In this document: positions 16,461-35,530 of the stretch, piece after piece | Position numbering within the stretch: the first letter of the stretch is position 1 | How the letters are laid out: the number at the start of each line of letters is the position of its first letter | DNA from: Oscillospiraceae bacterium | Lineage (GTDB): Bacteria > Bacillota > Clostridia > Oscillospirales > CAG-272 | Assembly (NCBI GenBank): GCA_015064185.1 | Contig: SVSS01000002.1 | Coordinates: 173,511 to 237,510 of the forward strand | Length of the DNA stretch: 64,000 nucleotides | Direction: 5' to 3' | Position numbers and translations under genes: made by a program | Notes under the pieces: model-generated | What the model saw: only the letters and a program-made list of their open reading frames with translations | Databases searched by the model: none | What the model was told of the DNA's origin: nothing

Positions 16461-16643
16461 ATGAGCAAGAAAACAAGCAAATTTTACGCGCGCCTGCTGG
16501 CGATCGTGCTTTCTGTGTTGATGATAGTAAGCATGGCATTTTACACCGTTTACATGATCGTAGAAAACATTAAGGAAGCAAAAGAAGAGGAAGAAAAGGC
16601 AGAAAGCAAGGCTGTACTTCCCTCCTACACATTTACGGTCTAA
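16461..16643 (+). CDS. Small single-span membrane protein, unknown function
   Basis: A 60-aa ORF starts 18 bases after the topoisomerase gene with GGAAGG upstream. It has a short basic N-terminus (MSKKTSKFYARLL), one hydrophobic helix (AIVLSVLMIVSMAFYTVYMIV) and a charged, Glu/Lys-rich tail of about 20 residues, probably with N-in topology. A strong terminator follows directly. No family is recognised. Its position at the end of the operon and clear ribosome binding site support a real gene. Confidence 0.7.
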   Translation: MSKKTSKFYARLLAIVLSVLMIVSMAFYTVYMIVENIKEAKEEEEKAESKAVLPSYTFTV

Positions 16644-16664
16644 AAGTACATAAGAACACGCAAA

Positions 16665-16704
16665 AGAACCGCTTTCTCTGTGATAGAGAAAGCGGTTCTT
16701 TTTA
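16665..16704. terminator. Bidirectional terminator between convergent operons
   Basis: AGAACCGCTTTCTCT pairs perfectly with AGAGAAAGCGGTTCT, followed by TTTTTA on the plus strand and preceded by CAAAAG. It ends the coaE-to-small-protein run, and probably also the glyS-kinase-PqqD-peptidase run from the other side. Confidence 0.88.
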
Positions 16705-16712
16705 TACAAGTT

Positions 16713-17177
16713 TTATTGTTTAAAAATTCTTTTCAAGCGCCCCCATGCACGACGCGGCAAAAAGCGCAAAAAACGCAACGGCATAATACAGTGAAAAAAA
16801 ACATACAAACGGTATTTTTTTGATCCTACCGAGATACGGCGATCTCCTCGATATACATCACACACGCGCGCAATGATGCTCTCACGCGGCACGCCGTATT
16901 CAAATGCCGTTTGATTATCGCCGCAAAAAACAGGTGCACCGTTTTTTTTAAACTTCATCAAGCGATGCAACACAAATGAACCGTCAGCACGGCGATACAG
17001 GCAAATATCGCGCTTTTGCAAATGGTGTGGTGACACAAGTAGCACGCTATCCTTACCCTGACGAAGCAACGGCATCATGCTGGTGCCACGCGGCCAAAGG
17101 CGAAATTCCCCGCCGCTTTCGATCACCTCAAGGAGCAAGGGATACATCTCCTGCATGGTATATTGCTTATTCTGCAA
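16713..17177 (-). CDS. S24/S26-type peptidase, SipW/Sec11-like Ser-His dyad
   Basis: A 154-aa signal-peptidase-like protein. The nucleophile Ser lies in RGTSMMPLL (about residue 33). The expected general base position reads FVLHRL, a His as in SipW/Sec11-type S26B enzymes rather than the Lys of LepB. VFCGDNQ matches the family GD(N) motif. The start is TTG at 17177, with AGGGAG upstream inside the pqqD-like gene, so the two overlap by 11 bases. The C-terminus is basic with a hydrophobic patch (YVFFHCIMPL). In the context of a PqqD and a kinase-like gene it may process a modified peptide; that role is inferred. Confidence 0.75.
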   Translation of the reverse strand: MQNKQYTMQEMYPLLLEVIESGGEFRLWPRGTSMMPLLRQGKDSVLLVSPHHLQKRDICLYRRADGSFVLHRLMKFKKNGAPVFCGDNQTAFEYGVPRESIIARVCDVYRGDRRISVGSKKYRLYVFFHCIMPLRFLRFLPRRAWGRLKRIFKQ

Positions 17178-17433
17178 TCGCGCCTACTCCCTTCAGCGTA
17201 TTGATAAATTGGGTAGCATGTGCAGTAGCGGTTTCTGCGTCTATCTCATAATTTTCAACAATAGCATTTACCAGCTCATCCAAGGTCTTGCTTTGTTCAA
17301 GCTGATCCCAAATAAAGCTGCCGGTGGAGTTTACGGAGATCATTCCGTTAAATTTTTTGGTTGCAGCACCAACGGCAACGATCACATACTGTGTGCCGAT
17401 CTTGCGCTTGATAAAATCCTTACTGCGTTTCAT
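17167..17433 (-). CDS. PqqD-family protein (RiPP recognition element)
   Basis: An 88-aa PqqD-like fold. PqqD domains bind leader peptides of ribosomal peptides and present them to modifying enzymes. The pattern is typical: a beta-hairpin region ending in NSTGSFIWDQLEQSKTLDEL, then helices (VNAIVENYEIDAETATAHATQFINTLKGVG). The ATG at 17433 has AGGAG upstream; the ORF-track GTG is earlier. It overlaps the kinase-like gene by 14 bases and the peptidase gene by 11, so the three are almost certainly translated together. No radical SAM gene or precursor is adjacent. Confidence 0.82.
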   Translation of the reverse strand: MKRSKDFIKRKIGTQYVIVAVGAATKKFNGMISVNSTGSFIWDQLEQSKTLDELVNAIVENYEIDAETATAHATQFINTLKGVGAIAE

Positions 17434-18148
17434 TGTTGTTCTCCTTTTGTCCACACATACCTTGATAAGAAACGATTGCCGCCTCGGGCATCATATTACA
17501 ATGTAACAAATATGTGGGGGTATTTGTAATGAGGGAGTCGAGCAAAGCAAGCTGCTGCTCTGCCATAACGGGGTCGTTGGGTAAAAGCACCTGCGAAAAC
17601 AGGCGAGATACCGCTTCCGCATCCCCAATCGGCTTTATGGTATTTTCCTTGCCGCGCTCCAAAAAGCAAATGCTTTTCAAGGGTGCACTTGAATGATTAC
17701 CTAATTTTTCTTTACCGCGCCAAGGGGTATCAAAGACCTGCCATTTGCCGTTGATCAAACGAAAAATGGGCTTATCACCGTTTACAACCGAGGCACGCTC
17801 ACCAAAAACGCGCAGCCAAAGATCGGTGTGCGTGGATTTTCCCGTTCCGCTGTGTGCGGCAAAGGCATATCCCTCACCGTCACAGGAGATCACCGAGGCA
17901 TGAAAGACCATAGCATCAAACCGCGCAAGCTCCAAAGCGATCTTGCGATAAATGCAGATACATTCAAGATACCCGTTGGTAGAATTGTAAAGATCCAATT
18001 CTCGTTCCGCCTCTAGCTCCTCCGGGGTAACAAAGACCGTAATATCGGGCTTAGAAAATTCAGCCGCAAACTCACGGCAAAATTTTTCAGAGAAAGGATA
18101 TTTATTTTGTATTTCAACATTCAATTCTGCAATACGTATCCGAAACAA
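17420..18148 (-). CDS. HPr-kinase-like P-loop protein
   Basis: A 242-aa protein related to the C-terminal domain of HPr kinase/phosphorylase and to kinases in lasso-peptide clusters. The P-loop is AHSGTGKSTHTDLW (about residue 98). It is preceded by FHASVISCDGEGYAF, the hairpin typical of the family, and followed by VNGDKPIFR and FDTPWRGKE, which resemble the acidic Mg-binding and capping segments. It is not HprK itself: the N-terminal domain and the HPrK signature are lacking. The start is TTG at 18148 with AAAGG upstream. It begins 32 bases after glyS without a terminator. The substrate is unknown; a peptide or Ser residue is a guess from context. Confidence 0.75.
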   Translation of the reverse strand: MFRIRIAELNVEIQNKYPFSEKFCREFAAEFSKPDITVFVTPEELEAERELDLYNSTNGYLECICIYRKIALELARFDAMVFHASVISCDGEGYAFAAHSGTGKSTHTDLWLRVFGERASVVNGDKPIFRLINGKWQVFDTPWRGKEKLGNHSSAPLKSICFLERGKENTIKPIGDAEAVSRLFSQVLLPNDPVMAEQQLALLDSLITNTPTYLLHCNMMPEAAIVSYQGMCGQKENNNETQ

Positions 18149-19630: not shown

Positions 19631-19659
19631 ATTGTAATACTAATATGAAATATTGTCAA
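19631..19659 (-). promoter_or_regulatory. Sigma-A promoter for glyS and the downstream module
   Basis: Minus strand TTGACA, a 17-base spacer and TACAAT, 35 bases before the glyS ATG. It lies between the ybaK stop and glyS, so glyS need not be read from the nusB operon. Confidence 0.8.
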
Positions 19660-35337: not shown

Positions 35338-35351
35338 ACAAATACTTGCAC

Positions 35352-35525
35352 ACGATAGCACTCCACGCAATGTGACAGTACAGCGCATATTTTGCTCTGT
35401 CCCAACAAGCGGTATCGGAAACTACAACCCATTTCGGCAATCTTCCCTTTCGCGCGCGGCATTTCCGTGCCGATGCGGTAAAACCGCATTCACCGCGCTA
35501 CTGATGAAGCTTGCACCTCTATCGT
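35352..35525 (-). ncRNA. Lysine riboswitch (L-box) aptamer
   Basis: On the minus strand ACGATAG at the 5' end pairs perfectly with CTATCGT at the 3' end to form P1. Inside are the conserved blocks GATAGAGGTGCAAGC, TTCATCAGTA, GAAAGGGAAG, GCCGAAA, TGTTGGGAC, ACTGTCA and GTGGAGTGCTATC, in the order of known lysine riboswitches. The length of 174 nt fits. Five helices radiate from the core. It is followed by a terminator and an NhaC-family gene, and preceded by a consensus promoter. Confidence 0.93.
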
Positions 35526-35530
35526 TAACA

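Follow-up and report, generated by a model that had tools for sequence, protein, structure and literature searches.

Three overlapping genes located behind glyS on the minus strand in the genome of an Oscillospiraceae bacterium (gut Clostridia) probably form a RiPP maturation module of the linear polyphosphorylated peptide (LPP) type, which would act in trans on precursors paired with secreted proteins. They encode an HprK-like kinase, a discrete PqqD-fold RRE and a putative S26B/SipW-like serine peptidase. The LPP family was published in May 2026 in Nat Commun (PMC13381572); the enzyme set has been known since that date, and the existence of a module of this kind is no novelty. The candidate precursor of this genome lies on another contig, directly behind a gene encoding a secreted protein, and its leader family co-occurs with the kinase also outside the order from which the profile seeds came.

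Organization of the module

The three genes were found in a window of 64,000 nucleotides, i.e., the whole stretch of DNA that was analysed (Table 1). An earlier reading made without database searches (the sequence-only reading) had described them as directly following glyS, with overlaps of 14 bases (kinase/PqqD) and 11 bases (PqqD/peptidase) and no terminator between; these positions and overlaps were verified. The PqqD ORF also has an alternative upstream GTG start at 17454. The end of glyS and the start of the kinase gene are separated by a gap of 32 bases, in which no terminator-like site was detected, and the best promoter-like site is located ahead of glyS. Read-through from glyS is therefore plausible and glyS is probably co-transcribed with the module. 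The 60-aa ORF that is convergent with the module was set aside as a local precursor, as it lacks a YxxP leader and has a membrane segment.

Table 1. Features of the window (positions counted from its first nucleotide)
Feature	Position	Strand	Remarks
HprK-like kinase (LppK-like), 242 aa	17420-18148	-	TTG start; Walker A SGTGKST, residues 100-106
Discrete PqqD-fold RRE (LppB-like), 88 aa	17167-17433	-	ATG start
Putative S26B/SipW-like serine peptidase (LppS-like), 154 aa	16713-17177	-	TTG start; triad S33-H71-D87
Intrinsic terminator closing the module unit	16662-16702	-	Strong 18-pair stem
glyS (glycyl-tRNA synthetase), upstream gene	18181 to ~19596	-	Outside the proposed mechanism
Best promoter-like site	19631-19659		
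60-aa ORF	16461-16643	+	One membrane segment; behind a parC-like gene; conserved in near relatives
Lysine riboswitch	35348-35529	-	Rfam RF00168, 97.8 bits

Kinase, RRE and peptidase

In a profile scan, the module kinase matched no Pfam family, including Hpr_kinase_C, and did not match TIGR00679; against the ScmC profile it gave an E value of 1e-7. Its AlphaFold model (pLDDT 89) has its best structural matches with HprK/P (1kkm) and PEPCK, and the predicted fold matches HprK/P best. Residues H83, G103, K104, T106, H107, D125, K126, P142, G145 and K146 are invariant in 65 homologues. PDB sequence searches with the kinase and peptidase alignments returned only P-loop noise or chance matches.

The PqqD protein matches PF05402 (E=1.4e-17) and, more weakly, the ScmD model (E=1e-4), and it aligns with the RREs of lasso peptides and LPPs (9x90, 5v1u, 9x8z and 6jx3). 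LppB binds the YxxP part of the leader; its residue N33 kinks the leader at the Pro and D70 forms a hydrogen bond with the leader Tyr (PMC13381572). The equivalent of N33 is N35 in the RRE of the window and is kept in 42 of 44 relatives. The equivalent of D70, unlike in LppB, is His72 in the genus of the window and its near relatives; it is an Asp in 34 of the 44 wider relatives.

The peptidase itself gave only sub-threshold matches with S24/SipW profiles (E between 0.01 and 0.03). A relative (L006:1181-1723, 33% identical) matches signal peptidase I, TIGR02228, at 6e-7, and the Ser, His and Asp of the pattern S-M...H-R...G-D are invariant in all 46 homologues. The triad fits that of the SipW-like LppS (S29, H68 and D93), which cleaves the leader in an LppB-dependent manner (PMC13381572). 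No membrane anchor was seen at the N terminus of the peptidase and its structure model (pLDDT 43) is unusable; the S26B/SipW-like identity is thus a prediction that rests on the invariant residues and on the TIGR02228 match of the relative.

Taken as a whole, the sequence-only reading had recognized an HPr-kinase-like protein with a GTGKST motif, a PqqD fold and a Ser-His signal peptidase pattern, and each was recovered: the kinase model matches HprK/P and the Walker motif is present, the PF05402 match is clear and the catalytic pattern, extended to a triad, is invariant. The profile matches are clear for PqqD, below threshold for the peptidase and, for the kinase, with ScmC in place of Hpr_kinase_C.

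As a separate observation, five orphan kinase loci (L067, L075, L079, L081 and L088) have a gene encoding 383-406 aa directly upstream, which is larC (nickel-pincer cofactor synthesis) in both loci tested (L067:6606-8474 and L079:5699-7564). The larC-linked kinases have no PqqD or peptidase gene nearby. This suggests that the subset of HprK-like kinases found behind larC has a role in lar operons; no description of this linkage was found in a literature search restricted to open-licence papers.

Conservation of the module among relatives

Phylogenetic profiling by profile searches across genomes identified kinase homologues in 126 of the 394 genomes of the order. At 38 of the 66 kinase loci examined, both a PqqD and a peptidase gene lie on the strand of the kinase gene, at a distance of at most 1.5 kb. 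The complete triplets mostly have the order kinase-PqqD-peptidase with short overlaps, and their surrounding genes differ among loci; the linkage with glyS is limited to the genus of the window and its nearest relatives. As the triplet recurs in many genomic contexts, it is not a chance association, and the coupling inferred from the window alone holds across many genera.

Several other genes recur at these loci. An MsbA-like/bacteriocin-type ABC exporter is encoded beside the module in about 15 loci of relatives and in L006, and an NTP_transf_5 protein adjoins the module in L068, L074 and L090. Next to a kinase-PqqD pair, L076:8560-10074 encodes a 504-aa protein that, judged by eye, resembles an S26-NTP_transf_5 fusion. 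Some genomes with leader peptides carry kinases without PqqD or peptidase nearby (L069, L071, L080, L091, L093, L098 and others); these loci are either parts of split modules or kinase-only variants.

Precursor peptides encoded in trans

No peptide with the leader motif is encoded within the window. The precursor family was found by comparing short ORFs located near the modules of relatives, which share an N-terminal part; such peptides sit inside or beside the module operons in many related loci. They carry the leader YxxPxxE[VI]IxFxxxD[VI]ITTS followed by a variable tail. Among 82 distinct members, Y5 is conserved in 90%, P8 in 85%, F15 in 93%, D19 in 98% and S24 in 96%. The leader peptides gave no significant match with NCBIfam (10 scanned) or Pfam (7 scanned).

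A search of the window genome with the leader profile gave one match (contig 10, position 16315, E=3.2e-6), which is located on a contig other than that of the module. This precursor, MKKIYEAPTSELIYIASADIITTS-QIDAIADDFGAEITDIVIG (leader-tail), is 43 aa long with the full sequence MKKIYEAPTSELIYIASADIITTSQIDAIADDFGAEITDIVIG, is preceded by a ribosome-binding site and starts 15 nt after the stop codon of a gene encoding a protein with a Sec signal (592 aa, or about 570 aa from the signal-peptide Met) that has no Pfam match. At the orthologous locus of a genus mate (G236), the 24-residue leader is identical, all seven nucleotide differences (7/7) being synonymous, and the tail, PVGINFGYDPFEETEIYDIVDM, is unrelated. 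At the sequence level, an identical leader combined with a differing tail is the signature of a leader and a core. The proposal of the sequence-only reading that the substrate is encoded elsewhere is therefore supported by a YxxP-leader candidate on another contig, whose family tracks the kinase. A leader profile can thus reveal LPP-like precursors that have no modification gene nearby.

On contig 49 of the same genus mate (L228:2329-2495), an apparently frameshifted, decayed copy of the leader peptide lies behind a second gene for a secreted protein, which suggests birth and death of protein-peptide pairs.

Pairing with secreted proteins

The association of the precursor with a secreted-protein gene is not peculiar to the window genome. 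Considering the 52 leader peptides that have a complete gene on the same strand ending at most 60 nt upstream, 44 of the upstream partners encode a Sec-type signal according to a simple rule, vs 21% of 843 background genes. The partner proteins are long (median 552 aa), and their recognized domains are Ig-like, cadherin-like or cohesin. Several genomes hold 13-16 leader peptides each. In the three richest genomes, where the positions of partners and leaders were compared by eye, strong matches (E<1e-15) with a profile of the partner C-terminal domain immediately precede a leader peptide in about 13 of 14 cases (G409), 9 of 11 cases (G410) and 6 of 6 cases (G602). The partner C-terminal domains belong to at least two unrelated types; no single domain therefore accounts for the pairing.

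That the precursor genes immediately follow those of secreted proteins suggests a function at the cell surface, which is inferred. It can be envisaged, although only tentatively, that each of many secreted proteins has its own RiPP-type phosphopeptide encoded alongside it, that a single kinase-RRE-peptidase module matures all of these peptides in trans, and that the peptide, perhaps coupled to a glycan, helps to display, anchor or assemble its partner. No role is known for LPPs, and the surface role suggested by the pairing is testable.

Co-occurrence of leader and kinase, and alternative explanations

Within the order, a leader match was obtained in 76 of the 126 genomes with a kinase vs 11 of the 268 others (50 of 64 genera with a kinase vs 2 of 104 genera without). 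This association is partly circular, as the profile seeds came from the same order. Outside the order, among 373 genomes that provided no seeds, a full-length kinase is present in 56, of which 39 have the leader, vs 1 of the 317 others. None of these tests was corrected for phylogeny. The leader is coupled less tightly to the complete module than to the kinase: 10 of 37 complete-module loci belong to genomes without any leader match and, conversely, 10 of 15 loci without RRE and peptidase nearby belong to genomes with one. In the kinase-only leader genomes, either the missing genes are located elsewhere or some kinases work otherwise.

Such a distribution could also arise if the module modified another substrate, such as a surface glycan carrier or the secreted partner, the leader co-occurring with it since the same lineages keep both. 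The window genome encodes two NTP_transf_5 homologues, neither of them in the module, and one sits in a sugar-nucleotide locus; LPP clusters of Bacilli are located in capsule loci (PMC13381572); and the partner proteins have C-terminal domains in common, all of which would be consistent with this explanation. It remains unlikely, as the YxxP leader is the known type of ligand of this class of RRE, as peptides lie within or next to module operons in many loci and as the co-occurrence is repeated both at the genus level and outside the order.

The short peptides might also be accessory proteins (chaperones or assembly factors) of the secreted proteins, their N-terminal part being a binding motif that is not cleaved. 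Their close pairing with these proteins would be explained in this way, but neither the conserved leader with its rapidly changing tail, nor the conserved S26-type peptidase of the module, nor the absence of an evident signal peptide on the short peptides is in agreement with this hypothesis, which is thus very improbable.

Little more can be said for a lasso-peptide pathway in which cyclase and B2 protein would have escaped detection, the genome being a MAG. Admittedly, lasso clusters also contain PqqD, HprK-like kinase, NTP_transf_5 and a YxxP leader, and the PqqD protein of the module scores highest against lasso B1 models. However, the genome gave no Transglut_core3 match above cut-off, its only strong Asn_synthase match is one large asparagine-synthetase-like protein, and cyclase and B2 genes are not recurring neighbours of the module in the 66 loci. 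As neither B2 nor a lasso cyclase was found in a genome estimated to be 95% complete, this pathway was rejected. Finally, that the kinase, given its HprK/P fold, would be a duplicate HPr kinase of carbon catabolite control or another regulatory kinase, next to which PqqD and peptidase genes merely happen to lie, is scarcely tenable, since a true complete HprK/P (TIGR00679, 358 bits) is encoded by a separate gene elsewhere in the same genome (for which reason the catabolite-control role was rejected), the module kinase has no Hpr_kinase_C match and the three genes are kept together across many genera and contexts.

Proposed mechanism

All parts of the minimal module for recognition, phosphorylation and cleavage that the sequence-only reading had put forward fit the LPP set lppK-lppB-lppS, for which phosphorylation and trimming of a YxxP-leader peptide have been demonstrated experimentally in another member of the Bacillota (PMC13381572). 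The same chemistry is only inferred for the present genome, from which neither a phosphopeptide nor any step of the reaction has been demonstrated. For maturation of the LPP type, the following model can be proposed. The PqqD/RRE would bind the YxxP part of the short leader and present the precursor to the kinase and the peptidase. The HprK-like kinase would phosphorylate the conserved Ser at the leader/core junction D[VI]ITTS, inferred to be Ser24 in the peptide of the window genome, and the cytosolic S26B peptidase would cut at this junction. The exact site of the cut is also a matter of inference. Classic signal peptidases obey a rule of small residues at -1 and -3, and if a similar rule holds, the cut would follow Ser24. 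If the LPP rule holds instead, i.e., cleavage three residues before the phosphorylated Ser (PMC13381572), the cut would follow Ile21 and leave TTS at the new N terminus. Export may use an unlinked ABC transporter. The released short phosphopeptide would then act together with the secreted protein whose gene immediately precedes that of the precursor. The genome has NTP_transf_5 homologues at two other loci, so that a sugar or nucleotide might be attached through the phosphate, although this is unproven.

Comparison with known systems

The module shares a PqqD/B1 protein, an HprK-like kinase and a [Y/W]xxP leader with phosphorylated lasso peptides of the paeninodin type, which have a kinase, B1 and a nucleotidyltransferase. 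It differs from them by the absence of macrolactam cyclase and of the B2 transglutaminase-like peptidase, with an S26B peptidase instead. Its kinase and PqqD models are related to those of the SynChlorMet/HprK_rel_A system (ScmC, ScmD, TIGR04352), but the scores are far below the curated cut-offs and no radical SAM protein is adjacent. The same genome harbours another RiPP system at a separate locus, a SCIFF ranthipeptide (TIGR03973/TIGR03974) with a different chemistry, whose precursor and radical SAM maturase are encoded on contig 14 (L132:4390-5981). This maturase carries an RRE-like N terminus and corresponds to the second PqqD match of the genome, which was consequently rejected as a part of the module.

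The closest likeness is with LPPs. In Paenibacillus alginolyticus, the lpp operon has the order A-K-B-S-D-N and LppK puts phosphate groups on Ser3 of the core (PMC13381572). The module has the identical K-B-S order, with an HprK-like kinase, a discrete RRE and a SipW-like peptidase with the S-H-D triad; the precursors have a YxxP leader and a conserved Ser near the leader/core junction, and there is neither cyclase nor B2. NTP_transf_5 (LppN equivalent) and MsbA-like exporter (LppD equivalent) genes are found beside the module as in LPP clusters, but only in relatives; no exporter is adjacent to the module of the window itself. The leader also departs from the published consensus YxxPxVLxHQxIxFETxxS (PMC13381572), being one residue longer from Tyr to Ser, and D70 of LppB is replaced in the genus of the window. 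Furthermore, unlike in LPP operons, the precursor is not adjacent to the module of the window but is encoded elsewhere and paired with a secreted-protein gene, and in relatives the number of precursors reaches about 16 per genome. Neither the leader motif of these Clostridia, nor the trans arrangement, nor the pairing with secreted proteins was described in the literature searched, which is weak evidence as only open-licence papers were covered. The variation found here is thus probably an LPP-like module that acts in trans on scattered precursors, which are paired with surface proteins. It extends the LPP family, whose first description dates from 2026, to Clostridia with stand-alone modules and, by inference, links these peptides to the bacterial cell surface.
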